The notes below the pieces were generated by a model that did no database searches, was not told the origin of the DNA, and was given only the letters and a program-made list of their open reading frames with translations. From assembly GCF_001267885.1 (NCBI RefSeq), contig NZ_CP012382.1, forward strand, positions 372,001 through 436,000: a stretch of DNA of 64,000 nucleotides. Reading direction: 5' to 3'. Shown piece by piece: positions 28,556 through 47,246 of this stretch; the stretch's first letter is position 1; each line of letters starts with the position of its first letter. The stretch comes from Streptomyces ambofaciens ATCC 23877 (GTDB taxonomy: Bacteria; Actinomycetota; Actinomycetes; Streptomycetales; Streptomycetaceae). Both the position numbers and the translations under genes were made by a program.

Positions 28556-28951
28556 CTAGGACGCGTCCGCTCTGGTGAGCTTCAGGGACGGCGGCCCGCC
28601 CGGATCGGGACGGAACTCCACCGTCTCACCGCCGCTCGGGTAGAGCTGGATGCCGGAGGTCTCGCCGAGTCCACCGTCATCGACCGTCAGATAGATGAAG
28701 TCGCTGGACGCCTGGCTGTCGCGGAACTCCCAGCGGCCACGGAAATCGGCGGGACCCGAGGAACCGTCCGTCGCCACACCGGTGGCGGAGAACGTCCCGT
28801 CGGGGTCGAGGCGGAGTTCACCGCCCGTCTTGGCGTCGCGGTACACGCCGGGCAGCTCGTCCGGGTCGTCGGAACCCGTGCATCCCGAGACGAGTGCCGC
28901 GGCGGCGGCCAGCAGGGCGACGAGCCGTCTCACGCGCGTCCTCCTGCGCAT
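28556..28951 (-). CDS. Lipoprotein, translationally coupled to the ALF-repeat gene (candidate immunity protein)
   Basis: 131 residues: MRRRTRVRRLVALLAAAAALVSGC, a basic signal with lipobox LVSGC, then a beta-rich domain (GVYRDAKTGGELRLDPDGTFSATG, WEFRD, YLTVDDG) resembling lipocalin-like or SmpA-like folds. ATG 28951 shares ATGA with the stop of the large ALF gene, so both are made together. Position and lipidation are what one would expect of an immunity partner anchored outside the membrane; there is no direct evidence. Confidence 0.8.
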   Translation of the reverse strand: MRRRTRVRRLVALLAAAAALVSGCTGSDDPDELPGVYRDAKTGGELRLDPDGTFSATGVATDGSSGPADFRGRWEFRDSQASSDFIYLTVDDGGLGETSGIQLYPSGGETVEFRPDPGGPPSLKLTRADAS

Positions 28952-31900
28952 CACGGCCCCAGCGTGACGTCGAACTCGATCACCTGGGTCTTGGGAGACA
29001 GAGGCCCGGAGTCCCCCACGACCTTGTCGACGAACGAACCGACGGTGTCGCTCCACCAGTCCGTGTAGCCGATGACCGGCGGGTGCGTCGCGGACTCGAT
29101 GTCCGACTCGTTGAACGCGGTGTACCGCCACACCACGGAGCCGTCCGCGTTCTTGCGGATGGGAGTCATCCGGACGTAGTGCGAGCCCAGGAACGTGTAC
29201 GCCAGGTTTCCGGTGAGCCCGGCCGTGGAGAGTGTCCCGTAGTCCTGGAGGTACTTCCCGGCGCCGTCGAAGCCGCCCAGCTGGTAGTCGTACATGTAGG
29301 TGTGGCCCAGCTCGTAGTCCCCTCCCTGGGTGCGGGAGGCGAAGAAGGCGATGACCTCCTTCGTGAACTTGTGGTCACGGTACAGGCTGGTGAACTCGTC
29401 GCCCGGACCGAAGCACTGCGACCGGGGGCCCTTCCCGGTCAGCCAACTCCACCCCAGCTCCCACGGATTGGTGCTGTTCCCGGACTCGATGGGGTCGCCG
29501 AACGGCGTCAGACAGCTCTCGGCGCCCTCCGGAAGGCCGTTCTTGTCCGGGTCGATGGGAACGGTCGCGTTGTCCAGCGCGTTCTGGATCGCCTCGCGTA
29601 TCGCCGCCTGAATGACGAGGACCTTGGCCTCGAGCGCGGCCCGGGCGGCGGCGTTGGCGTCCTCACCCGCCGCGAGCGACGCCTTGCGGGCTGCCGTGGC
29701 CGAAGCCGCGGCATCGGCGGCGTAGTTGGCGGCGATACCGGCGGACCGGACGGCCCGGGTCGCCGCGTGGCGCGCCACGCTGCTCGCCTTGCGCGCCGCG
29801 GCGGCCGCCTGACGCGCGGTTTCCGCGGACCGTGCGGCGTCGGCCTCGGATCCCTCGGCGGCTTCGGCGTTCTTGCGTGCTTCCTCGGCGGACAGCTTGG
29901 CGTCGGCCGCGTACCCCTTGGCGCGATCGGCCCATTCGATCGCCTTGTCGGCGGCGTCGCGTGCGAGGGCCGCCGCCTCGGAGGCCCGGGCCGCGTCCTC
30001 CAGCGCTTCCTGTGCGATCTTCGCCGCGCCCGCGATCGCGGCACGGATCGCGCTGATGTGCGTGGCGTGATCGTGGTCGATCCGCGCGAACTCGTACTGC
30101 GTGGTGCCGATGAACTGGCGCAGCATGTGCGTGTCGCCCTCGAGAGCGATCTTGGCGGCCGCCTTGACGTAGGGGCCTCCGTTCGCCAGGAGCGTGGTGG
30201 CCTTCACGCGGTCGTCCTCGCGGACGGCCGTGGCACGTTCGACGTGCAGGAAGACGTGCAGGGCCTCCGCGGTGCCCTTCTCCAGCGCGGCCTCGGCCGC
30301 ACGGCGGACCGCGGGGCCGGTGGTGTCATCGGCCAGGAGCGTGGTCACCTCGACGCGGTTGTCCTCCTTGGCCGCCTCGATCGCCCCGCCCTCGAGGAAG
30401 GTCCTGATCTTCGCGGCGTCCTCGGTCTTCAAGGCCTCCACTGCCGCCAGGGCCACGTCCTTCGTCGAGATGGCCGCCGCTGCCGCGACGTTCTCGACGT
30501 TGTCCTGCTGCAGAGCGATGACGCGGTCGGCGTCGATCCAGTGGACGACGTCCTCGTCCGAGCCGGCCAGCGCGAACTCCGCGGCCTCCCGGGTCCACGT
30601 ACCCGCCCGCTCGATGAGCTGGACCGCCGCCCTGCGCCCGGCTGCCACGGCTTCCGCCGTGTTGCCGTCCCGCAGCGCCGCCTCCGCCGAGCCGATGAGC
30701 GCGAGCAGTTCCTCGGACAGGCGCGCTTCCTGCGTCCGCTCCCGGTTGAACCGTTCGAGCTGATCCGCCTCCGCGCTCGCCTCGAGCCGCGCCCGTGCGA
30801 TCGCCTCGTCGGTCTCCTCGGCCAGCCTGGCGACCTCGGCCTCACGAGCCGTCTGTTCGACCGCACGCGCCTTGTCGACGGCGTCCGCCGCCTTGTTGGC
30901 GGCCTCCACGGCCGCGTTGGCGGCTGTCGTCGAGCGGTTGGCGTAGTCGACGGCCTTACCGGCGTGGTTCGCCGCTTCCACGGCGGCCGCAGCCGCCTTC
31001 TCGGCGTGGTCGGCGGCGCTGTTGGCCGCGTCGCGGGCCGCGCGTGCGGCGGTGGCCGCCTGACCGGCCAGGGTTCGCGACCTGCTCGCGGCCTGCGTGG
31101 CCCGGGCCGCGGCGGCCTCTGCCACGGCGGCCTCCCGCTGCGCGGCGGCGGCCTGGGACTGTGCGGCACCGGAGGCCACGGCCGCGTCGGCCGACGCCCG
31201 AGCTGCGGCGGCGGCGTTGACCGCCGAGCCGGCGGCGGCCGCGCCCGCGGCATCGGCCGCGTCGGCGGCCATGGCCGCGAGGTCGGCCTTGAGAGCCACG
31301 GTGCGGACGAGCTTGACCATCGCCGTGGCGGCAGCCGCCGCCTGTCGGGCCGCGTCCGCCATCGCCGCGTCCTTGGAGGCGCCGATCGCGGCACGGTACG
31401 CACGGGCCGCCGCACGTCCGCCCGCCGCGGCCGCCGCGGCAGCGGCCTGCGCGGCCGCCACCGAGCGCTGCGCGGCGGCCTGCGCCGTCCGCGAGGCCGA
31501 CACCGCGGTCGCCGCGGCAGCGGCCGCTCCCCGGGCCGCCTGCGCCGCCTTGTTCGCCGCCCTGGCGGAGCGCTGGACGTCCTGTTCGGCGGCCTCGGCC
31601 TCGGCCTTGGCCTCCAGCGCCGCCTCCTTCGCCTTCTCGGCGGCCTTGACGGCCTGCTGGGAGAGCTCGACGGCCTCGTCGGTCTTCCGGCCGGCGCGGC
31701 GTCCCTCCGCCTCCACGGCCTTGACCAGTTGCTGGATCGTCGCCGTCTCTTCGTCACGCGCCCGGGCGATGTACTGGCCCGTCTCCAGGAACCACCGCAT
31801 CGCCCGGGGCGACCCGTCGTCCAGCGCCCGCTCCGCGTACTCCCGCACCTGCGGAGACGCCGTCACCAGGATGGAGGTCACCTGCACCCGCTCGTCCTCC

Positions 31901-32478
31901 TCCTGAGCGGTGAACTGTCCGCCACTGAGGAAGGCGCGCAACGCGAAGTCGGAAGCGGACTCCAGCGCGGCGGTCGCCTCACGCTTCACGGCACGACCAC
32001 CGTGGGCCATGACCGTGGTCACGGCCACCTCGAGGTCCTCGCGCACCGCGGTCTGGAAACCGCCCTTGAGGAAGGCCTCGACCGCCGCCGTTCCGCCGGA
32101 CAGCGCCATGCCGATACCGTCGCGCGTCGCCCTCCCCGCCGTGACCAGGGACTGCGTGAGCGTGAACCTGTTGTCCTCGGCCCGGGCCGCGGGCAGCTTC
32201 TCGTCGAGGAACGCCCTCACGTCCGCGGCACTGCCCACCAGTGCGGCGGCCGCGGCGGTGCGTACGGCACGGCCGCCCGTCCGGTACGCCCAGACCACCT
32301 TGCCGCGGTCGGTGTCCGGCAGCCCGGATCCCTCGGGCACCGAGTCGGTGCCGGCCGCGCTCGCCGCGTACGCGGGGCGGGTGAGGACCGTGCAGTTCGG
32401 CAGCGCGCAACCGGCTGCCACCCCGACGAAGGCGGCGAGCATCTGACGTCTGCTGAACTGTCGTGACCGCTGTGCCAT
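28951..32478 (-). CDS. Tat-exported ALF-repeat protein with an alanine-rich coiled coil
   Basis: 1175 residues from ATG 32478 (GGAGAAGGG upstream). N-terminus: MAQRSRQFSRRQMLAAFVGVAAGC, a twin-arginine signal ending in a lipobox-like AAGC. Residues 60-260 carry ALF repeats (e.g. AAAALVGSAADVRAFLDEKLP, ALSGGTAAVEAFLKGG, ALESASDFALRAFLSGG); a second ALF block lies near 640-830. Between and after are long Ala/Lys/Glu heptad-like helices. The last 190 residues are a distinct globular domain (from PIDPDKNGLPEGAESCLTPFGDP to IEFDVTLGP) rich in Tyr, Trp and Gly. The plan (export signal, repeats, variable C-terminus, small lipoprotein behind) resembles polymorphic toxins; the C-terminal domain is unrecognised. 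The open frame runs 65 codons upstream into a pseudogene. Confidence 0.87.
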   Translation of the reverse strand: MAQRSRQFSRRQMLAAFVGVAAGCALPNCTVLTRPAYAASAAGTDSVPEGSGLPDTDRGKVVWAYRTGGRAVRTAAAAALVGSAADVRAFLDEKLPAARAEDNRFTLTQSLVTAGRATRDGIGMALSGGTAAVEAFLKGGFQTAVREDLEVAVTTVMAHGGRAVKREATAALESASDFALRAFLSGGQFTAQEEDERVQVTSILVTASPQVREYAERALDDGSPRAMRWFLETGQYIARARDEETATIQQLVKAVEAEGRRAGRKTDEAVELSQQAVKAAEKAKEAALEAKAEAEAAEQDVQRSARAANKAAQAARGAAAAAATAVSASRTAQAAAQRSVAAAQAAAAAAAAGGRAAARAYRAAIGASKDAAMADAARQAAAAATAMVKLVRTVALKADLAAMAADAADAAGAAAAGSAVNAAAAARASADAAVASGAAQSQAAAAQREAAVAEAAAARATQAASRSRTLAGQAATAARAARDAANSAADHAEKAAAAAVEAANHAGKAVDYANRSTTAANAAVEAANKAADAVDKARAVEQTAREAEVARLAEETDEAIARARLEASAEADQLERFNRERTQEARLSEELLALIGSAEAALRDGNTAEAVAAGRRAAVQLIERAGTWTREAAEFALAGSDEDVVHWIDADRVIALQQDNVENVAAAAAISTKDVALAAVEALKTEDAAKIRTFLEGGAIEAAKEDNRVEVTTLLADDTTGPAVRRAAEAALEKGTAEALHVFLHVERATAVREDDRVKATTLLANGGPYVKAAAKIALEGDTHMLRQFIGTTQYEFARIDHDHATHISAIRAAIAGAAKIAQEALEDAARASEAAALARDAADKAIEWADRAKGYAADAKLSAEEARKNAEAAEGSEADAARSAETARQAAAAARKASSVARHAATRAVRSAGIAANYAADAAASATAARKASLAAGEDANAAARAALEAKVLVIQAAIREAIQNALDNATVPIDPDKNGLPEGAESCLTPFGDPIESGNSTNPWELGWSWLTGKGPRSQCFGPGDEFTSLYRDHKFTKEVIAFFASRTQGGDYELGHTYMYDYQLGGFDGAGKYLQDYGTLSTAGLTGNLAYTFLGSHYVRMTPIRKNADGSVVWRYTAFNESDIESATHPPVIGYTDWWSDTVGSFVDKVVGDSGPLSPKTQVIEFDVTLGP

Positions 32479-32505
32479 CACGATTCCCTTCTCCTGCGCT
32501 GATCC

Positions 32506-32696
32506 CGGCCAGGACGTGCTCCCGGCCGTCGACGGACTGTCGTAGTCGGTGGTCCGCACCCGGTGCACCGAGTCGGACTCCAGGCTCAGGAAGCACTGCG
32601 CGGCCGAGGGCAGGCCTTCACCGCCCGCGTCGGGGCACCGGCGGCGGCCGCGGTGCCCGGAACGCGCGCCCAAGTGCCGCGTGGCTTCCTCACAGT
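32506..32696 (-). pseudogene. Decayed copy of the small secreted protein gene
   Basis: Three blocks match the gene at 27724-28221 in order with internal deletions: 32506-32540 (CCAGGACGTGCTCCCGGCC), 32551-32594 (GTGCACCGA...CTCAGGAAGC) and 32634-32696 (gene start). The start codon is lost: where copy A has CAT (ATG on the minus strand), this copy has CCT. It now lies in the 5' untranslated part of the ALF gene. Confidence 0.75.
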
Positions 32697-34633: not shown

Positions 34634-35251
34634 ATGACGCGCATCATCGCCGACATCTCCGTCTCCCTCGACGGCTTCGTCACCGGACCCGATCCCGGCC
34701 CGGACAACGGTCTGGGCACCGGCGGCGAAGCCCTCCACCTCTGGGCGTTCTCCGGCGACCCCGACGACCGCCGGGTCCTGCGTGAGGCGACGGCCCGCTC
34801 GGGCGCCGTCGTCCTCGGGCGCCGGCTCTTCGACGTCGTGGACGGGCCGAAGGGCTGGGACGACACGTCCGGCTACGGCGCGGGCGAGGTCGGCAGACCC
34901 GCTTTCGTCGTCGTGACGAGCTCGCCACCGGAGTCGGTGCGGACGGCCGACCTCGACTGGACGTTCGTCACCACCGGTCTCCGCGACGCCGTCACCGCCG
35001 CGCGCGAGCGGGCCGAGGCTGCGGCGCGTGTGCGCGGTGAGGACCGCGACGTCATCCTCATGGGCGGCGGCGCCACGGTCGGCTCGGCACTCGAGGCCGG
35101 GCTGGTCGACGCGCTGACGCTGCACCTGGCGCCCGTCGTGCTGGGCGGCGGAACCCCGCTGTTCACCGGCGGGACGCCCCGCACGCTGGTGCAGCGGAGC
35201 GTGGTGTCGACGTCGACCGTGACGCACCTGACGTACGACGTCCTGCGGTGA
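34634..35251 (+). CDS. DHFR/RibD-like reductase family protein
   Basis: 205 residues of the RibD C-terminal/dihydrofolate reductase superfamily: MTRIIADISVSLDGFVTGPD, GAVVLGRRLFDVV, and the NADPH loop DVILMGGGATVGSALEAGLVDALTLHLAPVVLGGGTPLF. This family often catalyses unspecified NADPH reductions. ATG 34634 is chosen by alignment; ATG 34601 in frame has GGGAG close by. Its stop overlaps the following gene. Confidence 0.85.
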   Translation: MTRIIADISVSLDGFVTGPDPGPDNGLGTGGEALHLWAFSGDPDDRRVLREATARSGAVVLGRRLFDVVDGPKGWDDTSGYGAGEVGRPAFVVVTSSPPESVRTADLDWTFVTTGLRDAVTAARERAEAAARVRGEDRDVILMGGGATVGSALEAGLVDALTLHLAPVVLGGGTPLFTGGTPRTLVQRSVVSTSTVTHLTYDVLR

Positions 35252-36099
35252 CCCCAATGACCACGGTGGACGCCAACGGAATCGTGTCGGGCATCGAGTC
35301 GTTCGGTGACAGCGACGCGCCACTCGTCCTGCTCGCGGGCGCACCGACCATGCTCTCCTGGCCGGACGCGCTGTGCGAGCGCCTGGCCGCCGGCGGGCGC
35401 CGCGTGGTGCGCTACGACCTGCGCGACAGCGGGGCTTCGACGGCGACGGACCCGCAGGCGCCCCCTTACGGCCTGCGAGACCTCGCCGCCGACGCCGCGG
35501 CCCTGGCCGACACGCTCGGCGGGGGGCCCGCGCACCTCGCGGGGATCGGCGTCGGCGGGATGGTCGCCCAGGTGGCCGTACTCGACCATCCCGAGGCGTT
35601 CTCGGCCCTCACGCTGGTCGGCACCCGCGCGGTCGCCCCGGGCCCGCCCGACGACGACCTGCCCGACCATGACCGGGCGACGATGAACCGGCTGTTCGCG
35701 CGTCCGATGCCGGACTGGACCGATCGCGAGGCGGTCGCGGAGTTCGCGGCCGCCGGCGCGGCCATCCTCGGTGATGACCCCGTCACCGCGCGCACGGTCG
35801 CCGCGCGCATCTGGGACCGCACGCCCGGCACCGCACCCGCGGTCCACAGGGCGAACCAGATGGGCATGGTGTTCTCACGGCTCGACTGCACACCCCGCTG
35901 GCGCGAGCGCCTGCCCGAGATCGACGTTCCCACGCTCGTCGTCCACGGCCGCCGCGACCCGTTCTTCCCCGTGGGCAACGGCGAGGCGATCGCTCGCGAG
36001 ATTCCGGGGGCACGGCTGCTGGTCCTCCCGGAGGCCGCCACCGCGATCCCCGACGCGGCGGTCGGCGAGGTCACCGAGGTGATGCTCGGGCTCGGCTGA
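35248..36099 (+). CDS. Alpha/beta-hydrolase-fold protein lacking the nucleophile
   Basis: 283 residues, RdmC/aklanonate-esterase-like. GTG 35248 overlaps the upstream stop (GTGA); ATG 35257 is also possible. The nucleophile elbow, normally GHSMGG, reads GIGVGG, so the serine is glycine; the late histidine motif reads PEAATAI without GH. The acid site HGRRDPFFP and the oxyanion region remain. It is therefore probably non-hydrolytic, or it uses the fold for binding. Cotranslated with the DHFR-like reductase, so they may act together. Confidence 0.8.
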   Translation: MTPMTTVDANGIVSGIESFGDSDAPLVLLAGAPTMLSWPDALCERLAAGGRRVVRYDLRDSGASTATDPQAPPYGLRDLAADAAALADTLGGGPAHLAGIGVGGMVAQVAVLDHPEAFSALTLVGTRAVAPGPPDDDLPDHDRATMNRLFARPMPDWTDREAVAEFAAAGAAILGDDPVTARTVAARIWDRTPGTAPAVHRANQMGMVFSRLDCTPRWRERLPEIDVPTLVVHGRRDPFFPVGNGEAIAREIPGARLLVLPEAATAIPDAAVGEVTEVMLGLG

Positions 36100-36158: not shown

Positions 36159-37148
36159 TCAGGGCAGCGGCTTGTGCGCGAACACCCACCGGTTCCCCTC
36201 CAGCGCGTCGTTCGGCTCGGGGAGGGGGCCGCGGCCGTGCCGGTGGGTGAAGTCGAAGGGGGTGTGCACCGAGGCGGACCAGCCCTTGGCCCTCAGGTCG
36301 CCCGCGGAGTCGGGGCGCGGCCCTTTGTCGAAGAGGTCGAGCAGGTCGATGCCGATCCGCTCCCGCGTCGCCGTGTAGATCGCGCTGTCCCGGTACGCCA
36401 GCAGATCCTTCTCCAGCTTGGCCTCGAAGGCCAGCGCGCTGCCACCGGTGGTCAGCAGGTCCACCGTGTCGATGAGATACGTCTCGGCGCGGCTCGGCAG
36501 GTAGAAGAGCAGCCCCTCGGCCAGCCAGACGCTCGGCGCGGACGGGTCGAAGCCTGCGGTGGTCAGCGCGGTGACCCAGTCGGCGCGCAGGTCGACCGGT
36601 ACGGCGAGGCGCCGTACCCTCGGGACGGCCGACAGGCCGGTGAGTACCCGGTGCTTGAACGCCAGCACGCCCGCCCTGTCGATCTCGAAGAGCACGCAGT
36701 CGGGCGGCCACTCCAGCCGGAAGGCACGGGTGTCCAGCCCCGCGCCCAGCAGGACGACCTGCCGGGCGTCGCCGCTGACCGACCGGAGGAGGAAGTCGTC
36801 GAGGACCCTGGTCCGCAGGCCGAAGTACCGGGCGAACCGTCCCCACAGCGGATCGGCGTCTCCGTCCGGGACCCCGTCCAGGCGCACCGGCCAGTCCGCG
36901 CACACCGGGGCGGCGCGTGTGAAGTGCTCCGCGTAGACGTCCTGCGCCAGGCTGTCGTGGCGGTGGGTCTCGATCGTCCGGGCCGCGGCGACCAGGAGGG
37001 CGGTCAGCCCCACTCCCCCGTCCACGCCTTCCCCGTCCGTGTGCCGCGGCGCCGTGCCGGCGCTGCCTCCTCCGTCGGCCGGAGCGGGGACCGTGCGGTG
37101 CCCGTTCGTCCGGCGCGGTGAGTCCGCGGTACCGCGTGCCTCTGTCAT
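36159..37148 (-). CDS. Leucine carboxyl methyltransferase-family (Ppm1/Tcmp) SAM methyltransferase
   Basis: 329 residues. After a disordered 50-residue N-terminus rich in G, T and P, the domain shows RTRVLDDFLLRS, VVLLGAGLDTRAFRLEWP (SAM loop), FEIDRAGVLAFKHRVL, and WLAEGLLFYLPSRAETYLIDTV, typical of the LCM-like family often found in secondary-metabolite gene sets that methylate carboxylates or hydroxyls. ATG 37148 overlaps the ADH stop (ATGA). Last gene of a four-gene operon. Confidence 0.87.
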   Translation of the reverse strand: MTEARGTADSPRRTNGHRTVPAPADGGGSAGTAPRHTDGEGVDGGVGLTALLVAAARTIETHRHDSLAQDVYAEHFTRAAPVCADWPVRLDGVPDGDADPLWGRFARYFGLRTRVLDDFLLRSVSGDARQVVLLGAGLDTRAFRLEWPPDCVLFEIDRAGVLAFKHRVLTGLSAVPRVRRLAVPVDLRADWVTALTTAGFDPSAPSVWLAEGLLFYLPSRAETYLIDTVDLLTTGGSALAFEAKLEKDLLAYRDSAIYTATRERIGIDLLDLFDKGPRPDSAGDLRAKGWSASVHTPFDFTHRHGRGPLPEPNDALEGNRWVFAHKPLP

Positions 37149-38251
37149 CGGCTTCTTTCCTCCGGGAGCAGGACGGGTTTCACCACGCGGCCCGCCTCGC
37201 AGTCGCGTTCGGCCTCGTTGATGTCGGCCAGCGGGTAGGTGCGGATCAGTTGGTCGAAGGGGAAGAGACCGGCCTGCCACAGTCCGGTCAGCCGGGGTAT
37301 CAGTACTCCGGGCACGGCGTCGCCTTCGCAGATGTGGCGGATGCCGCGGCCTCGGTCCAGTGTTCCCGGTGCGAGCGGCAGGTCGGTGTGGAGTCGTGCC
37401 ACCAGGCCGAGAACGCCCCTGGGGCGAAGAGCGCGCAGCGCGTCGTTGACGAGCGGGGGCGAGGCCGTGGTGTCCAGCGCGTACTGCGCTCCCCCGTCGG
37501 TCAACCGCCGGATCCGTTCCGGCAGCCCGGTCGTCGCGGCAGACAGCGGGATCGCGCCGAACCGTTCGGCCAGGGCCAGCCGTTCGGGGAGCCGGTCGAC
37601 GGCGACGGTCAACGTGCCGGTGGCGGTGGCCGCCATCACCGCGGCCAGGCCCACCGCTCCCGCGCCGAAGACCGCGAGGGTGTCGCCGGGGCCGGCGCCG
37701 AAGCTGTTGAGGACGGCTCCGGCGCCCGTGAGGAAGCCGCAGCCGAGCGGGCCGAGCAGCTCGAGGGGCAGTGCGGTGTCGACCCGCACGGCGTTGCGCG
37801 CCGGGACCAGCGCGTACGCGGCGAACGAGGACTGGCCGAACCAGCGGGGGGCCATGGCCTCTCCGGCCGCGTCGGTGAGGTGCGGCGGATCCTCGCTGCG
37901 CCCGCCGAAGAGGTTGAGGGAGGCGAAGGAGTCGCAGTAGGCGGGAGCGGCACTGCGGCAGTTGCGGCAGTGACCGCAGGAGTCGAAACTCAGCACGACG
38001 TGGTCGCCGACGCCGATCGCGGCGTCGGGACCGCCGCCCGTGCGCACCACGACCCCGGCGCCCTCGTGGCCGAGCACCGCCGGCAGCGGGCTGCGGCCGG
38101 CCGACCGCCGGACCGCGAGATCGGTCCGGCACATTCCGCAGCCGGCGATCTCGACCAGCACCTCGCCGACGGCTGGTTCCGTGCGCAGGGTCATCTCCTC
38201 GACGGTGAAGGGGCCCTCGTACGAGCGCAGTACGGCCGCCTGGATCCTCAT
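37145..38251 (-). CDS. Zinc-dependent medium-chain alcohol dehydrogenase
   Basis: 368 residues, class III/benzyl-alcohol-dehydrogenase-like. Catalytic zinc: GCGMCRTD and GHEGAG; structural zinc: SCGHCRNCRSAAPAYC (four cysteines); cofactor loop VFGAGAVGLAAVMAA. It should oxidise a primary alcohol with NAD+. ATG 38251 overlaps the ALDH stop by four bases. In this operon it could oxidise a hydroxymethyl group made by the MfnB-like synthase pathway. Confidence 0.88.
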   Translation of the reverse strand: MRIQAAVLRSYEGPFTVEEMTLRTEPAVGEVLVEIAGCGMCRTDLAVRRSAGRSPLPAVLGHEGAGVVVRTGGGPDAAIGVGDHVVLSFDSCGHCRNCRSAAPAYCDSFASLNLFGGRSEDPPHLTDAAGEAMAPRWFGQSSFAAYALVPARNAVRVDTALPLELLGPLGCGFLTGAGAVLNSFGAGPGDTLAVFGAGAVGLAAVMAATATGTLTVAVDRLPERLALAERFGAIPLSAATTGLPERIRRLTDGGAQYALDTTASPPLVNDALRALRPRGVLGLVARLHTDLPLAPGTLDRGRGIRHICEGDAVPGVLIPRLTGLWQAGLFPFDQLIRTYPLADINEAERDCEAGRVVKPVLLPEERSR

Positions 38252-39657
38252 CCCTGTTCCCCCTGCGGGCGGTGGACGACGAACGGCCGGAGATTGCCGT
38301 ACAGCCCCCACGGTCCGCCCGCCACGCCGACACCGCTGTGGTGGGCGCCCGCGAAGGGCTGGGCGAGGGACAGTTCGGCGTGGTGGTTGATCCACGCCGT
38401 GCCGCACTCGAGCCGGTCGGCCACCGCCTCGGCCCGGTCCAGGTCGGTGCCCCAGACCGATCCGCCCAGTCCGTAGCCGGTGCCGTTGGCCGCGTCGACG
38501 GCTTCGTCGAGGCTCCGGTACGGCAGCACCGGCAGGACCGGTCCGAACTGTTCCTCGGTCACCACCGGACTGCCGGGCGGTACGTCGGTGAGGATCGTGG
38601 GAGCGAAGAAGTACCCCGGCCCGTCCAGGCGGTGGCCGCCGGCCGCCGCTCGGGCACCGGCCGCCAGCGCCTGCTGCGTGACCAGTTCGACCCTGGCCAG
38701 CTGAGGGGCGTTGTTGACCGGGCCCAGCCGGGTCGCCGGGTCGAGGCCGGCCCCGACGGTGACCGTCCTCGCGCGGTGGGCGAGGGCTTCGACGAGCTCG
38801 GCGTGGAGCCGGGCCGGTGCGTAGACGCGTTTGACGGCCATGCAGACCTGCCCGCAGTTGCGGAAGGCGGCCCAGAACAGCCGGTCCGCGATCCGGTCCA
38901 CCTCGACGTCGTCCAGCAGGACGGCGGCGTCGTTGCCGCCCAGTTCCAGGGTGACCCGGGCGAGCGAGGCCGCCGCCGCCCGGGCGACGGCGCGTCCGGT
39001 GGGCACCGAACCGGTGAAGGTGACGTGGCGGATGCGCGGGTGTGAGGCGAGGCGGGCGCCGAGGGGCTCGCGGCCGGTGACGACGGTCAGGACGTCCTCG
39101 GGCAGGACGGCGGCGAGGACGGAGCCGAGCAGCCGGGTGGCCACCGGGGTGAACGGGGAGGGCTTGAGGACCATGGTGTTGCCCGCCGCGAGCGCGGGCG
39201 CGAACTTCGCCGCCGCGAGCTGGACGGGGAAGTTCCACGGCACGATCGCTGCGACGGGTCCGAGCGTGCGCCAGCGGATCTCGCTGTGCACGGGCCGTCC
39301 GTCGGTGATGCGCCGCGTCCTGGGAGCCAGGTCCGCGAAGTAGCGCAGGCGGGCGGCCGTACGGGCGATCTCCGCGTGGGACTCGGTCAGGGGTTTGCCC
39401 TGCTCGCGGGTGACCAACCGGGCCAACTCGTCGCCGGCCGTTTCCACGGCGTCGGCGGCCCTGTGCAACGCGGCGGTGCGGGCGGCGGGATCGGCGCGCC
39501 AGCCGTGCCAGGCGCGGTGTGCCCGGTCGACCACCGTGTCCAACTCGTCCGGCTGTTGGTCGGGGGCCTCCTCGAAGGTCTCCCCCGTGGCCGGGTCGAC
39601 GACGGGGATGCGCGCTGTCGGGCTTCCGGGGAAGCGGTCTGTGGCGGTGGTCGGCAT
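38248..39657 (-). CDS. NAD(P)-dependent aldehyde dehydrogenase
   Basis: 469 residues with all ALDH motifs: PWNFPVQ, FTGSVPTGRAV, catalytic glutamate in LELGGNDA, catalytic cysteine in NCGQVCMAVKRV, and EEQFGPVLPVL. ATG 39657 begins 8 bases after the MfnB stop. The predicted job is oxidation of an aromatic or aliphatic aldehyde to acid; the 5-formyl group of the furan made next door is an obvious candidate substrate. Confidence 0.9.
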   Translation of the reverse strand: MPTTATDRFPGSPTARIPVVDPATGETFEEAPDQQPDELDTVVDRAHRAWHGWRADPAARTAALHRAADAVETAGDELARLVTREQGKPLTESHAEIARTAARLRYFADLAPRTRRITDGRPVHSEIRWRTLGPVAAIVPWNFPVQLAAAKFAPALAAGNTMVLKPSPFTPVATRLLGSVLAAVLPEDVLTVVTGREPLGARLASHPRIRHVTFTGSVPTGRAVARAAAASLARVTLELGGNDAAVLLDDVEVDRIADRLFWAAFRNCGQVCMAVKRVYAPARLHAELVEALAHRARTVTVGAGLDPATRLGPVNNAPQLARVELVTQQALAAGARAAAGGHRLDGPGYFFAPTILTDVPPGSPVVTEEQFGPVLPVLPYRSLDEAVDAANGTGYGLGGSVWGTDLDRAEAVADRLECGTAWINHHAELSLAQPFAGAHHSGVGVAGGPWGLYGNLRPFVVHRPQGEQG

Positions 39658-39664
39658 GCGATGG

Positions 39665-40423
39665 TCAGTTCGCGGCGGGGACGCCGGCGGCGTGCTTCCG
39701 GAACTGGTGGTCCATCTCCGCCCGGAAGGCGGCCACCAGGTGCGGCTGGATCCTTCCGGCGTTGCGGTCACCGCCTTCGCAGACCGCCCCGCGCACGCCC
39801 ACGATGTCCGTGCCGATGCGGGTGAGCGGACCCAGGTCGCTCCGTCCGACACTGCCCGCGAGGGCGGCGAGCAGGCCGGACGCGTGGGACAGCCGGACGA
39901 ACTCGGAACAGACGTCCGGAGGAACGTGGTCGAACAGGCGCGTCCCGTCCTTGACGGCGGTGTCCAGCATGGCCGCGTCGGCGCCCGAACGGGCGGCGAT
40001 GTCGGGCAGGGCCAGGGGGTTGACGCAGCCGATGCGGTGGGCGTCGGCGTATCCGGAGGCGACGACGAGTGCTTCGGGGCGGTGGTCCTTCACCGCCCGG
40101 ACGACCGCGCGCATGACCTCGATGCCCTGGTCGGGCGTCGTGCACCCGTAGAGGCCGACCTTGATGTACGTGGCGCCGGAGACGACCGCGCCGAGTGCCG
40201 CCTGCGCCACCGTGCCCGGCTTGTACGGGACGTCTCCCACCGTGGCGGACACGGGCTTGTCCGCCGGGACCGCGTCGCGTATCTCCCTGATGACCCAGGG
40301 GAAGTTGGCGCCGAGCGAGCCTTCGTCGGGCTTCTTGACGTCGACGATGTCGAGGTGTTCCGCCGCCTTCGCACAGTCGAGGGCCTCTTCGACACCGTCC
40401 GGGGAGATGAGAAGCAACACCAT
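39665..40423 (-). CDS. mfnB: MfnB-like (5-formylfuran-3-yl)methyl phosphate synthase
   Basis: 252 residues of the DUF556/MfnB family, which condenses two glyceraldehyde-3-phosphates to a 2,4-disubstituted furan phosphate. Seen: the [13 protein letters not shown] stretch with the first catalytic lysine near 29-30, YIKVGLYG, and [13 protein letters not shown] with the second lysine. ATG 40423 has GAAGGAG at ideal spacing. In methanogens this feeds methanofuran; a Streptomyces has no use for it, and here it leads an operon with ALDH, ADH and a methyltransferase, so a secondary furan product is likely. Confidence 0.85.
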
Positions 40424-40760
40424 GAGCTCCTTCCACCACATGTCCGCCTGACCGAGGCACAGGGGGGCGGATCAGCTGGTCCCTGTGCGGTGTGCTCATC
40501 ATTTCCGCCGCCCATGGCCGCCGGTAGAGCGTGCGGAAAGGGAACGGGGTACGGCCGGCGTGTCCAGTGCGCCGTGCACGCCGGTCCGAATCGGTTCTCC
40601 CGAGCCGCAGGCGCGTGTTTCATGCCGCAGGAGAGCCATGTTCATTCGTTCTGCTGAAGAGAACGCCTTCCCCGGAGCCCCGGAATCCACAGCCCGCAGG
40701 ATGCTGAGCGGCCGTCATGCCCGGCCGTCCCACCCGTGGTCCGACGAAAGGCGAGAGTCC
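40424..40760. other. Intergenic region between the furan operon and the EF-hand gene
   Basis: 337 bp holding the promoter of the minus-strand operon. No separate gene is seen. An ATG at 40638 with GCAGGAGAGCC upstream is in frame with the EF-hand gene and would add 41 residues; this is noted as a possible longer start. Confidence 0.5.
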
Positions 40761-41294
40761 ATGCGCGAGGAAGCGATCAACCGGGTCAAGCTCGTGTTCA
40801 CCCTGTTCGACGCCGACGGGAACGGCGTCCTGGAATCCGACGATTTCGAGCTGATGAGCAGCCGGGTCGCGGCAGCCGTCCCCGGAGCCGACGAGGCCCG
40901 GAAGCAGGCCATGCGTGCCGGGTTCACGCGCTACTGGAACACGCTGGCCAGCGAACTCGACACGGATCACGACGGTCGGATCACCTACGACGAGTATCAG
41001 GTGTGCGTCCTGTCGCCGGAGCGCTTCAGCGGAGCGATCGACGCGTTCGCGTCCGGCTTCGCGCACTTCGGCGACGTGGACGGGAGCGGTATGGTCAGCC
41101 GACCGGTGTTCGTCGGCATGCTGCGAGGGGTCGGCTTCGATCTGCCGAACATCCATGCGCTCTTCGAAGCCTTCGAGCCCGATGCGGAGGACCGGGTCCG
41201 GGTGGATCTCTGGGAGACCGAGATCAGGAACTTCTACGCCCCCGACATGGGGGGTATCCCCGCCGACCTGCTGGCACCCGCCGCCGCGGCCTGA
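40761..41294 (+). CDS. EF-hand calcium-binding protein (calerythrin-like)
   Basis: 177 residues. Three canonical loops: DADGNGVLESDD, DTDHDGRITYDE, DVDGSGMVSRPV; the fourth (EPDAEDRVRVDL) is degenerate. The helix pattern KLVFTLFDADGNG and LASELDTDHDG is that of the calerythrin/sarcoplasmic group found in Streptomyces. Predicted role: cytosolic calcium buffer or sensor. AAAGGCGAGAG precedes ATG 40761. A second protein of this type is at 57191. Confidence 0.9.
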   Translation: MREEAINRVKLVFTLFDADGNGVLESDDFELMSSRVAAAVPGADEARKQAMRAGFTRYWNTLASELDTDHDGRITYDEYQVCVLSPERFSGAIDAFASGFAHFGDVDGSGMVSRPVFVGMLRGVGFDLPNIHALFEAFEPDAEDRVRVDLWETEIRNFYAPDMGGIPADLLAPAAAA

Positions 41295-43288: not shown

Positions 43289-43870
43289 ATGGCAGGCAGC
43301 ACCCGCGGACCCAACGACCCGCGGCGGCGCGAGCGGATCCTCGCCGCCGCGCTCGACGTCGTCGCCGAGCACGGCGCCATCAAGGTGACCTATCGCAGGA
43401 TCGCCGAGGCGGCCGGAGTGCCGCTGGGCTCGCTCACCTACTACTTCGACGACATGCAGGACCTGCTCACCTCGGCGTTCACCCGCCTCGCCGACACCGT
43501 CTCCTCGCGCTACGGGGCGCTCCTGGACGCGGCCCGGACGCCCGAGGAGGCGCGGGAGGCCGTGGTGGAGATCATCAGCGGCAAGGTCTGGGGAACCGAC
43601 CGCAACCTGCTGCTGAGTTACGAGCTGTACGCCTTCGCCGCGCGTCACCCGGAGGTGCGTGAGGTCATGCGGTCGTGGATGCGGGCCAGCAGGGAGTCCC
43701 TGGCCCGGCACTTCGACCCCCTGACGGCGCGCGCCTTGGACGCGCTGGTCGAAGGCTTCTCCATTCACAACTCCGTCGACACCCGGCCCACCGACCGCGC
43801 GGAGGTGGCGGCCATCGTCGACGCCATCGCCGATCGCCGCGTGAGCGGAACCGGCGGGAACACCGGCTGA
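43289..43870 (+). CDS. TetR-family regulator of the MFS gene
   Basis: 193 residues. HTH: RERILAAALDVVAEHGAIKVTYRRIAEAAGVPLGSLTYYFDDMQDLL. ATG 43289 with GGACGGGCCGGGAC upstream. The C-terminal domain has YELYAFAARHPEVREVMRSW, similar to regulators of multidrug efflux. It should repress both directions through the TGTAC palindrome. Confidence 0.88.
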   Translation: MAGSTRGPNDPRRRERILAAALDVVAEHGAIKVTYRRIAEAAGVPLGSLTYYFDDMQDLLTSAFTRLADTVSSRYGALLDAARTPEEAREAVVEIISGKVWGTDRNLLLSYELYAFAARHPEVREVMRSWMRASRESLARHFDPLTARALDALVEGFSIHNSVDTRPTDRAEVAAIVDAIADRRVSGTGGNTG

Positions 43871-43904: not shown

Positions 43905-46900
43905 GTGCCGGTGCGCCAGGCGCGGCGGCTGCGTGATCAGGGTCGAGGGCACGGTGGACGAGTAGCGGGGGTGGCGGGGTTGCCGGGGTCGGGTGCGCGG
44001 GGCTTGTCGCGAGGAGCGCTGATCCGGCAGCGCGCGAAGACGCGGTTCGTGGGGCGGCGCGCACAGTTGGCGTTGTTCACGGAGAACCTGTCGAAGGACC
44101 CGCTCTCGGAGGAGGATCCGGCGGAGTTCCTGTTCCATGTGCGCGGTGTGGGCGGCGTGGGCAAGTCCACGCTGCTGCGCCAGTGGCAGGAGGCGGCCAG
44201 GCGGGCGGACGCGGTGACGGCGGTGGTGGACGAGAACGACGTCCACGGGGTGCAGCAGGCCTTGATCGAACTGGCCCGGCAGCTGGCGGACCAGACGGGT
44301 CCGTGCCGGGAGTTCGACAGAGCGGTCGAGCAGTTCAGGCGTGAGCAGGCGGCGCAGGCCGAGCCGGCACCCGTGGAGGGTGAGGTGTCGATGTCGAGCC
44401 GTGTGGTGACGCAGGCCGCGCTGGGCGCGGCCTCGTTGATCCCCGGGGCCGGTGTCGTCACGGCGATGGCGAATCCGGACGCCGCGGCGCAGGGGCTGGA
44501 CCGGCTTCGGTCCGTCTCCCGGTCCCGTGCCCAGCGGCGCGGCGGCCGGGGTGACGAGGCGGGGCTGAGCCGTGCGTTCGTGGCCGAACTGGAACGCCTG
44601 TGTCGTCGGCACCGGTGGGTGGTGCTGTTCTTCGACACCTGGGAACAGAGCGCGCGGTACCTGGACGGGTGGCTGCTGAGTCTGCTGGACGAGGAGTTCG
44701 GCCCGGTCCCGGTGAACGTCATCGTCGTACTGGCGGGCCGGGACGAGCTGGTGGAGCGGGAGTGGGCGCCGCTGCGGGACCAGGTCACGGACGTGCCGTT
44801 GGAGGTCTTCACCGAGGCCGAGACCCGTTCGCTGCTGACGTCCAGGGGGGTGTCCGATCCGGGAGTGGTGGAGGCTGTGCTGCAGCTGTCCATGGGGCTG
44901 CCGCTGTTGGTGGAACTCCTCGCTCTGGCCCGTCCCCACACGGTCGAGGAGGTCGACGCGGGCGGCGACCTCGCCGACGTGGCCGTCGAGCGCTTCGTGC
45001 AGTGGATCACGGCCCCGGAGCAACGCGAGGCGGTACGGGCGGGGGCGTTGCCTCTCCAGCTGAACGAGGACGTGTTCGCGGCCGCGGCCGGGTCCGAAGC
45101 GGAGGGACTGTGGGAGTGGCTGTGCGGGCAGCCGTTCGTCAGCGGTCGCGGCGACTTCAAGCACTACCACGCCGTGGTCCGCGCCAGCATGGTCCGCCAG
45201 CAGCGGATCCATTCCCCGCAGAGCTGGGCTGCGGCACATCTGCGGCTTGCCGGCACTCATGCCGCTTGGCGTGCGACGGCCGAGGAGCGGCTCCCCGAGG
45301 CGAAACGGTGGAAGGACCCCGAATGGCGTCGGCACCGCCTGGACGAGACGTACCACCGTCTGTGCGCCCACCCGGGGACGCAGCTGACGTCCGCCCTGGA
45401 ACAGGTGGTGCGTGCTGCGGGCCAGGACACCGCCGTGCTGCGGCAGTGGATCGAGATGCTGGAACAGGCCGCACAGGACGCCGCCGACGCAGACCTGCTC
45501 ACCTGGTCGGAACGGCTTCGGAACACCCTCGCCGACGACGAGCCGGAGCTCGCCTGCCTCGCCGCGCTGCTCACGCACAGCCGTGTGGGCCCGGAAGGCA
45601 AGAGCTGGGCTCATACCTACCGCGGGAACCGCCTCTACCTCGGGGACCGGGACGAAGAGGCGCTCACCGAGTTCGACCGCGCCATCGGGTACGACGCCCG
45701 TAACGCCCACGCCTGGGGCAGCCGCGGGGAGACGCATCGCTGGCTCGGCCGCTACGACCAGGCCATCACCGACCTCACGACCGCGCTCGACATCAACCCG
45801 GGCGACGACTGGGCGCTCGCCTCCCGCGGCCAGGCGCACCTGCAGGCCGGCCGCTACGACCAGGCCGTCGCCGACCTCACCGCCGCAATCGACAGCAACC
45901 CGTCCTACGACTGGGCGCTGAGTCAACGCGGGGAAGCACACCGGCTGGCCGGCCGCTACGACCAGGCCGTCACCGACTTCACCGCCGCACTCGCCATCGA
46001 CCCCGCCTACGGCTGGGCGCTCGCCTCTCGCGGCCAGGCACACCTGCAGGCCGGCCGCTACGACCAGGCCGTCGCCGACCTCACCGCCGCACTCGACCTC
46101 AACCCCACCGATGACTGGGTCCTGGGTCAACGCGGAGCGGCGCACCGGCTGGCCGGCCGCTACGACGACGCCGTCACCGACCTCACCGCCGCACTCGACC
46201 TCGCCCCGGCATCTGCCGGGCTGCTGGGTCAACGCGGGGAAGCCCACCTGATGGCGGGCCGCTACGAGCAGGCCGTCGCCGACCTCACCGCCGCACACGA
46301 CCTCAACCCCACCGATGACTGGGTCCTGGGCCAACGCGGAGCGGCGCACCGGCTGGCCGGCCGCTACGACGACGCCGTCACCGACTTCACCGCCGCACTC
46401 GCCATCGACCCCGCCTACGACTGGGCACTCGCCTCCCGCGGTGCCGCGCACCGGCAGGCAGAGCGCTACGACCAGGCCGTCACCGACCTCACCGCCGCAC
46501 TCGCCATCGACCCAGCGAACGACTGGGCGCTGGCCCAACGCGGCGCGGCACACCGGCTGGCCGGCCGCTACGACCAGGCCGTCACCGACCTCACCGCCGC
46601 ACTCGCCATCACCCCCGCCTATCCCTGGGCACTGGCGCAACGCGGGGAATCGCACCGGCTGGCCGGCCGCTACGAGCAGGCCGTCACCGACTTCACCGCC
46701 GCACTCGACCTCAACCCCACGGACGACTGGGCGCTCGCCTCCCGAGGCCAGGCACACCAGCTGGCCGGTCGCTACGAGCAGGCCGTCACCGACTTCACCG
46801 CGGCGGTCGACATCGCTCCCACCCTCGCCTGGCCGCTCGGCATGCGGGGCAGAGCACACCGACAGGCAGGCCATTACGCGAGAGCACGAGCGGACCTGGA

Positions 46901-47246
46901 GCGGGCTGTGGCATGGGAGCCCGAGGATGTCTTCAGCAGGTTCGAGAAGCTCATGCTCGACACCGTGGAAGGACGACTCGAAGCCGGTGCGGAGCAGTGG
47001 AGCGAGCTGCTGGCGGCCCCGACAGGTTCGCTCGACGAAGTCGACGCCCGCTTCCTGGTCCTCCTCCGCGCCCTGCATCTGGAACCGCGCCTCGTGGCAG
47101 AGGCGACCGAGGCGCTGCTCGCCGCACTACTGGGACCGGGCGACGTCGCCGAGCTCCTGAACTACCTGGCTGAGCTGTCCGCAGTGGGGGGTGAAGTGGC
47201 CGACCGTGCCCGACAGTGCCGTGAGCTGATCGTCGGCACACCCTGA
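43905..47246 (+). CDS. P-loop NTPase (STAND-like) with a 13-unit TPR array
   Basis: Up to 1113 residues. P-loop GVGGVGKSTLLRQW near residue 81; Walker B-like WVVLFFDTWE near 244; then a winged-helix-like region, followed by 13 consecutive 34-residue TPRs (residues 569-1010) and a short cap. The layout (NTPase core plus long repeat sensor) is that of STAND proteins, which include phage-defence and stress sensors; no effector domain is recognisable at the N-terminus, which is short. The start is uncertain: GTG 43905 opens the frame, GTG 43971 and TTG 44004 are alternatives and none has a good ribosome site. Confidence 0.8.
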   Translation: MPVRQARRLRDQGRGHGGRVAGVAGLPGSGARGLSRGALIRQRAKTRFVGRRAQLALFTENLSKDPLSEEDPAEFLFHVRGVGGVGKSTLLRQWQEAARRADAVTAVVDENDVHGVQQALIELARQLADQTGPCREFDRAVEQFRREQAAQAEPAPVEGEVSMSSRVVTQAALGAASLIPGAGVVTAMANPDAAAQGLDRLRSVSRSRAQRRGGRGDEAGLSRAFVAELERLCRRHRWVVLFFDTWEQSARYLDGWLLSLLDEEFGPVPVNVIVVLAGRDELVEREWAPLRDQVTDVPLEVFTEAETRSLLTSRGVSDPGVVEAVLQLSMGLPLLVELLALARPHTVEEVDAGGDLADVAVERFVQWITAPEQREAVRAGALPLQLNEDVFAAAAGSEAEGLWEWLCGQPFVSGRGDFKHYHAVVRASMVRQQRIHSPQSWAAAHLRLAGTHAAWRATAEERLPEAKRWKDPEWRRHRLDETYHRLCAHPGTQLTSALEQVVRAAGQDTAVLRQWIEMLEQAAQDAADADLLTWSERLRNTLADDEPELACLAALLTHSRVGPEGKSWAHTYRGNRLYLGDRDEEALTEFDRAIGYDARNAHAWGSRGETHRWLGRYDQAITDLTTALDINPGDDWALASRGQAHLQAGRYDQAVADLTAAIDSNPSYDWALSQRGEAHRLAGRYDQAVTDFTAALAIDPAYGWALASRGQAHLQAGRYDQAVADLTAALDLNPTDDWVLGQRGAAHRLAGRYDDAVTDLTAALDLAPASAGLLGQRGEAHLMAGRYEQAVADLTAAHDLNPTDDWVLGQRGAAHRLAGRYDDAVTDFTAALAIDPAYDWALASRGAAHRQAERYDQAVTDLTAALAIDPANDWALAQRGAAHRLAGRYDQAVTDLTAALAITPAYPWALAQRGESHRLAGRYEQAVTDFTAALDLNPTDDWALASRGQAHQLAGRYEQAVTDFTAAVDIAPTLAWPLGMRGRAHRQAGHYARARADLERAVAWEPEDVFSRFEKLMLDTVEGRLEAGAEQWSELLAAPTGSLDEVDARFLVLLRALHLEPRLVAEATEALLAALLGPGDVAELLNYLAELSAVGGEVADRARQCRELIVGTP
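45609..46934 (+). repeat. 13 x 102-bp tandem repeats encoding TPRs
   Basis: Units such as ALASRGQAHLQAGRYDQAV repeat with exact 102-bp period and DNA identity high enough that segments (e.g. GCCGGCCGCTACGACCAGGC) recur almost unchanged. This implies recent unit duplication or gene conversion. Confidence 0.9.

Follow-up and report, generated by a model that had tools for sequence, protein, structure and literature searches.

The 64,000-nucleotide stretch of Streptomyces ambofaciens ATCC 23877 analyzed in this study (contig NZ_CP012382.1, positions 372,001 to 436,000; hereafter, the window) contains a compact set of four genes on the minus strand, at positions 36159-40423 of the window. They encode a homolog of the archaeal furan synthase MfnB, an aldehyde dehydrogenase (ALDH), a zinc-dependent alcohol dehydrogenase (ADH), and an S-adenosylmethionine (SAM)-dependent methyltransferase, and are best explained as one translationally coupled, mobile operon. 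A fifth gene, encoding an EF-hand protein, is associated with this furan cassette. The pair formed by the EF-hand and methyltransferase genes is best explained as a wider module, to which MfnB, ADH, and ALDH form one of at least two attached enzyme sets. The fifth gene, the wider EF-hand/methyltransferase theme, and the expendability of ALDH are new beyond the initial annotation of this DNA, which had missed the EF-hand gene and the methyltransferase and EF-hand pairs lacking any furan enzyme.

The operon starts with mfnB (39665-40423, 252 aa; coordinates here and below include stop codons), which is followed after a gap of 7 bp by the NAD(P)-type ALDH gene (38248-39657, 469 aa), the dispensable member of the set. 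The latter overlaps by 4 bp with the gene of the aryl/benzyl-alcohol type ADH (37145-38251, 368 aa), which in turn overlaps by 4 bp with the gene of a methyltransferase of the LCM/TIGR00027 family, a probable carboxyl O-methyltransferase judging by its family (36159-37148, 329 aa). An open reading frame (ORF) and Pfam check bore out the initial proposal in its enzyme names and in the order, coordinates, and spacing of the genes, and the interval 36159-40423 is exact. The EF-hand gene (40761-41294, 177 aa) lies on the plus strand, divergently from mfnB.

When sought in other actinomycetes, the four-gene set was found to recur as a unit across Streptomyces and some of their relatives. Partial conservation among unrelated neighbors would have spoken against an operon; the unit is kept, while its neighbors vary. 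Among 100 genomes, comprising that of S. ambofaciens, its relatives, and members of the class, mfnB was found in 20, of which 13 are from the genus (S. ambofaciens included) and seven from one other genus of the order. All 19 other mfnB loci combine mfnB with the ADH and methyltransferase genes, and 18 also contain the ALDH gene. A second set, consisting of the best 80 of 267 loci by similarity to the window and hence biased to close kin, comes mainly from Streptomyces, with some loci from Kitasatospora and one from Actinacidiphila. The ADH gene is present in 80/80 of these loci, the methyltransferase gene in 79/80 (the contig of the remaining locus stops past ADH), and an ALDH gene of apparently full length in 74/80. 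Together these sets make up 99 loci, which do not represent 99 independent genomes, since the sets overlap (e.g., L035 and L094).

In 392 genomes of the same genus, 96 mfnB genes were identified, that is, in about a quarter of the genomes. This number excludes weak partial PF04476 matches in genomes G494, G518, and G630 (E about 1e-7) and a second weak match in G506; mfnB of G626, which is in two pieces, was counted once. A methyltransferase match of the cassette kind is present in all 96 mfnB-positive genomes vs 23 of the 296 genomes without mfnB. It is located at most 6 kb from mfnB in 93 genomes, on the opposite strand in five of these, and in the other three the two genes are on different contigs. 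Finally, in a class-level survey mfnB was detected in six of 393 genomes, all six of the same genus. Two of the genome scans scored at most eight and at most five candidates per genome, and their counts are lower bounds.

Apart from the four cassette genes and the EF-hand gene, no family was seen in more than two of 20 loci. The cassette is considered mobile because its position and neighbors vary. Copies of mfnB with at least 80% identity are carried by 13 plasmid records of Streptomyces and Streptantibioticus; both plasmids that were inspected contain the whole cassette together with an EF-hand gene, and on one of them, a 70.7-kb circular plasmid, Tn3 transposase genes are located about 3 kb from the EF-hand gene. 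A phage origin was rejected, as no MfnB match was found in 50,697 phage records.

MfnB matches the 4HFCP_synth family (PF04476, E 1e-77), being the only match to it in the whole 8.39-Mb genome, and scores above the cut-off of the NCBIfam equivalog for (5-formylfuran-3-yl)methyl phosphate synthase (NF002573; 389.9 bits, cut-off 341). Residues D28, K30, K88, D154, and K158 align with the active site of MJ1099 from Methanocaldococcus jannaschii and are kept in 99/99 loci. The methanogen protein, a 4-HFC-P synthase, is also of similar length and 58% identical over 229 columns, and its structures are the PDB matches (4rc1/4u9p, E 1.2e-79). Passages of the study of MJ1099 (PMC6604932) describe the joining of two glyceraldehyde 3-phosphates into 4-HMF phosphate via a Schiff base at Lys27, two lysines and two aspartates being essential. 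Unlike those of the methanogen gene, the partners of the Streptomyces gene are ALDH, ADH, and the methyltransferase.

The ADH contains both domains of its superfamily (PF08240, E 4.9e-20; PF00107, E 9.6e-19). Its best PDB matches are 5tnx (E 3.9e-88) and benzyl alcohol dehydrogenase 1f8f (E 4.9e-75), to which it aligns over its length. Residues C41, H62, and C171 and the cysteines C92, C95, C98, and C106, putative catalytic and structural zinc ligands by analogy, are kept in 99/99 loci. In its alignment with 1f8f the ADH resembles the XylB/XylC-type dehydrogenases, although the predicted substrate is of the furfuryl type and the predicted role is biosynthesis rather than degradation. The methyltransferase belongs to the LCM family (PF04072, E 1.2e-50; 172.4 bits, cut-off 22.3) and to TIGR00027 (242.4 bits, cut-off 93.55), and its PDB matches are Rv0731c (6id6) and ML2640 (2ckd), with E about 1e-40. 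Carboxyl methylation is known in this family; for instance, TcmP is responsible for carboxyl O-methylation in tetracenomycin biosynthesis. TcmP-like enzymes share the domain family with the cassette protein, whereas the gene partners of the latter are an EF-hand gene together with either a furan synthase or an Iso_dh-like enzyme, in place of a polyketide pathway.

All cassette genes are under purifying selection, which is strongest for mfnB: the median ratio of nonsynonymous to synonymous rates (dN/dS) is 0.15 for mfnB, 0.22 for ALDH, 0.26 for ADH, 0.28 for the methyltransferase, and 0.36 for the EF-hand gene, these being simple Nei-Gojobori estimates with synonymous sites near saturation in many pairs.

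The ALDH is expendable. The full-length protein is a typical member of its family (PF00171 Aldedh, E 1.1e-136; best PDB match 8yen, E 2.8e-118), and the catalytic positions C272 and N142 are kept in 93 and E238 in 92 of the aligned loci among the 99. In six of the 80 loci (L043, L048, L098, L099, L112, and L117) only remnants of the gene lie between mfnB and ADH, with the catalytic Cys, Glu, and Asn lost, and no ALDH was found in a further genome (locus L028, genome G059). These losses weaken the suggestion of the initial annotation that both side chains of the furan are oxidized. The breakpoints differ among the decayed loci. Both ends of the remnants are in one frame in 5/5 loci where they could be matched, as expected if the need for translational coupling to ADH preserves the frame; the chance of this is about 1 in 243, calculated post hoc and for events whose independence is not proven, and the open frames of the remnants are weak evidence, as other frames are also open in GC-rich DNA. 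Shortened loci were also seen in the survey of 392 genomes, where the spacing between mfnB and the methyltransferase gene is less than 2.1 kb in six of 93 cases, the usual distance being 2.5-2.9 kb. The seven ALDH-poor genomes have 26, 17, 22, 30, 40, 27, and 30 other ALDH matches. Since the cassette ALDH can be lost, either its reaction can be skipped or other cellular ALDHs perform it, and the constant core of the cassette consists of MfnB, ADH, and the methyltransferase.

The product of the associated fifth gene matches the EF-hand Pfam models and, in PDB, 3akb/3aka and calerythrin (1nya). It shares with calerythrin and the 3akb-type proteins the fold family and three recognizable loops, and is predicted to bind calcium. 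Positions 1 and 12 of loops 1 and 2 are kept in 57-60 aligned loci, while loop 3 ends in L or V rather than E in 58/60 loci. Compared with other bacterial EF-hand proteins it forms a separate orthologue group, the copies in its own genome being at most 32% identical. These include two paralogues with equal scores near the opposite chromosome ends (65087-65557 and 8238384-8238854 in the chromosome, G000:C1) and a second pair at 92941 and 8210692; such pairs near both ends probably reflect terminal inverted repeats.

An EF-hand orthologue was found at the locus in 13 of the 19 fetched loci and in 47/80 of the larger set. At the genome level, it is present in 16/20 mfnB-positive vs 7/80 other genomes of the 100-genome set, and in 72/96 mfnB-positive vs 25/296 other genomes of the 392 (Fisher p 4e-36, uncorrected for kinship). 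In mfnB-positive genomes, 41/73 EF-hand genes are located within 8 kb of mfnB. The gene is placed in three ways in the furan loci, namely, upstream and divergent, downstream and convergent, or upstream and codirectional. In a quick tree the upstream-divergent and downstream-convergent genes separate, with at least two well-separated clades; thus the association with the furan cassette was probably made more than once.

The same pair occurs without furan genes. Among the 296 mfnB-negative genomes, 21 have both the EF-hand and the methyltransferase genes, four only the former, two only the latter, and 269 neither; 21 of 26 EF-hand genes in such genomes are located within 2.3 kb of a related methyltransferase gene, all on the same strand. 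One of these 21 EF-hand genes, in G737, belongs to a furan cassette that is cut by the contig start inside ALDH, in a genome scored as mfnB-negative, and G751 has a cassette remnant without mfnB. In six loci, one of them in an mfnB-positive genome, the EF-hand gene is directly followed by the methyltransferase gene and the two stand alone. In addition, a four-gene sister cassette encoding an EF-hand protein, an Iso_dh-like protein, an isochorismatase-fold hydrolase, and a methyltransferase is complete in 14 loci (L131, L133, and L143-L154) and partly masked in a fifteenth. Relatives of the Iso_dh-like protein are numerous in other actinobacteria. As Iso_dh relatives act on hydroxy-carboxylic acids, we infer by analogy that each enzyme set would supply a carboxyl methyltransferase with an acid.

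The furan-cassette methyltransferases group in a single clade (41/41 rows, 100/100) of a 66-member tree, nested next to the forms from the EF-hand-plus-methyltransferase loci, with bootstrap values that are not fully settled. This nesting suggests that an EF-hand/methyltransferase pair came first and that the furan genes were one of its later additions. L142 (9543-10385), L134, and L162 contain more distant LCM methyltransferases that lack an EF-hand neighbor.

The region between mfnB and the EF-hand gene carries the noncoding and strongly conserved promoter/leader of mfnB (40424-40590, minus strand), common to the divergent EF-hand gene. Comparison of 100 upstream regions revealed conserved blocks at about -153, -108, -80, -53, and -11, and blocks such as CTACCGG and GGAAATGATGAG are at fixed distances from the mfnB start. 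The leader pattern has one exact match in the S. ambofaciens genome. It is absent, by profile, from both tested loci of a second family (L022, L031). Among the EF-hand or Iso_dh-type loci L131-L162 it was detected solely in L160, a furan-cassette remnant. The positionally fixed blocks raised the suspicion of a structured RNA, which was rejected, as there is neither an Rfam match (none for 40380-40760 at E up to 1, and none in the window at the gathering cut-offs) nor a supported fold. RNAalifold predicted no pair on 56 leaders, six leaders folded singly gave z-scores of 0.77, 0.61, -1.81, -0.70, 0.86, and -0.76, and two hand-drawn helices are conserved with no clear compensatory change. Nor is a leader peptide likely, given the frameshifts caused by single-base indels. 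The region is thus left as a promoter/leader and a candidate regulator site. The window also has a TetR gene (43289-43870), for which neither the 19 nor the 80 loci showed an equivalent close to the cassette at the thresholds applied.

The enzyme families suggest the following pathway. By analogy with the archaeal enzyme, MfnB would convert two molecules of glyceraldehyde 3-phosphate into (5-formylfuran-3-yl)methyl phosphate, from which a host phosphatase may release the alcohol. The benzyl-alcohol-type ADH and the ALDH would shift each of the two side chains between the alcohol, aldehyde, and acid states, the LCM methyltransferase would esterify a carboxylate, and the EF-hand protein may serve the methyltransferase or its product. 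Candidate products are methyl 4-(hydroxymethyl)- or 4-formyl-2-furoate, or a methyl ester of furan-2,4-dicarboxylate. We predict, with moderate confidence, that the product belongs to the class of free, 2,4-disubstituted furan-carboxylate methyl esters. The furan acid or ester originally proposed thus remains a fair guess in view of the MfnB residues, the likeness of ADH to benzyl-alcohol-dehydrogenase-type enzymes, and the methyltransferase family. More speculatively, the EF-hand sensor and the LCM methyltransferase could be the portable core of a system of calcium-linked methyl-ester signals, with swappable acid-making sets (MfnB, ADH, and ALDH for a furan acid; the Iso_dh-like and isochorismatase-fold proteins for another), so that related strains would signal with different compounds by way of one esterification module responsive to calcium; we put this forward as a tentative idea of rather low probability.

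Several observations weigh against the pathway leading to a free ester. The product of MfnB is a phosphate ester, yet no phosphatase is encoded among the four genes, and the conserved neighbors in 20 loci include no phosphatase, exporter, or receptor. The decay of ALDH argues against an essential acid-forming step by this enzyme, and in the ALDH-poor genomes, cassette remnants aside, no ALDH exceeds 44% among the matches listed. Members of PF04072 are mostly uncharacterized, and O-methylation of another target is possible. Finally, 24/96 mfnB-positive genomes have no EF-hand orthologue at the threshold used and 32/73 EF-hand genes are located away from mfnB; thus the cassette does not strictly require an EF-hand gene in cis.

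The presence of the methyltransferase and EF-hand genes without furan genes (six loci) or with the Iso_dh-like/isochorismatase-fold pair (14 complete loci) means that, in general, the methyltransferase may act on substrates other than furans. This would agree with the furan acid being a building block that enzymes encoded elsewhere activate and incorporate into a larger metabolite or cofactor, the methyltransferase acting on that compound or another target. We consider it unlikely, as no polyketide synthase, nonribosomal peptide synthetase, or ligase is conserved beside the cassette, where only five families recur in 20 loci, and the furan-cassette methyltransferases form a clade of their own, as if adapted to one substrate. 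The retention of ADH in all 99 loci, with ALDH decayed or absent in seven, could instead reflect a reductive ADH, which would convert the MfnB aldehyde to 2,4-bis(hydroxymethyl)furan or its monophosphate; the methyltransferase would then make an ether or use a minor acid, and ALDH would trim side products. We regard such a scheme as quite unlikely: the nearest solved relatives of ADH include benzyl alcohol dehydrogenase, an oxidizing enzyme, full-length ALDH is kept in 92/99 loci under purifying selection, and the LCM family is associated with methylation of carboxyl groups. ADH and ALDH of the XylB/XylC type are usual in aromatic degradation, and the set could also serve the catabolism or detoxification of aromatic aldehydes, having acquired an mfnB-like aldolase of changed function. 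This is improbable, given that MfnB scores above the equivalog cut-off, keeps the aligned active-site residues in every locus, and has the lowest dN/dS, and that ALDH, the enzyme most needed in such an operon, is the one partly lost.

A remnant of methanofuran or methylofuran cofactor biosynthesis, of which MfnB is the furan synthase, is very improbable. In Azospirillum, whose MfnB is 34% identical, the gene adjoins DUF447 and DUF6513 genes, and the genes of formylmethanofuran dehydrogenase C and formyltransferase are about 5 kb away. In contrast to this arrangement, cofactor-pathway genes are absent from the conserved neighbors of the Streptomyces cassette in 20 loci and from the neighbors in the window, the rest of the genome not having been searched for other mfn genes. 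Moreover, the S. ambofaciens protein, so close to MJ1099, is at most 34% identical to the Proteobacterial plasmid copies among the full-length-type matches listed. This origin was rejected on these neighbors and similarities. The predicted product of the free-ester pathway resembles the methylenomycin furans (MMFs) of S. coelicolor signaling in being a small furan carboxylic acid derivative made by Streptomyces, but MMFs are 2-alkyl furans, proposed to be made by MmfL, MmfH, and MmfP, whereas the cassette product is predicted to be 2,4-substituted. An MMF-like signaling cluster was rejected, as neither an MmfL (AfsA-type) synthase nor an ArpA-type receptor is conserved in 20 loci.

Among other genes of the window, an alpha/beta hydrolase gene (35248-36099, plus strand) faces the operon end and is not conserved with the operon. 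Its product resembles macrolide esterase models, with a best score of 157.7 bits vs a cut-off of 420. Directly upstream of it, with a 4-base overlap, is a gene for a RibD_C-domain reductase (34634-35251, plus strand). A very long repetitive ORF at 28951-32673 (minus strand) contains many repeats of the A-x-x-x-A and F-L type and looks ALF-repeat-like by eye. At 43905-47246 (plus strand), a large protein has an ATPase-like start followed by a long run of TPR-like repeats, also by eye.

The S. coelicolor mfnB gene is SCO6440, which passages of a study of AbrB1/B2 (PMC7581861) list among up-regulated genes checked by quantitative reverse transcription PCR (RT-qPCR). The literature passages found on SCO6438-SCO6442 describe no cluster. 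No paper on the operon was found in the literature searched, which did not extend to subscription papers, and the linkage of the EF-hand gene to the methyltransferase gene was not found there either. The component families are thus known, while their combination and the EF-hand/methyltransferase module appear to be undescribed within that literature.

These observations indicate that a cofactor enzyme of archaeal type has become part of an apparently standalone small-molecule operon, present in about a quarter of the same-genus genomes sampled. The cassette predicts a specific compound class, and a test of this prediction requires just four genes. Provided that the chemistry is as proposed, the cassette would represent a natural pathway that turns glyceraldehyde 3-phosphate into 2,4-furan acids, compounds of interest as building blocks for polymers. 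The recurrent pairing of the methyltransferase with an EF-hand protein, whether or not furan genes are present, provides a concrete entry to the roles of calcium-binding proteins in Streptomyces.

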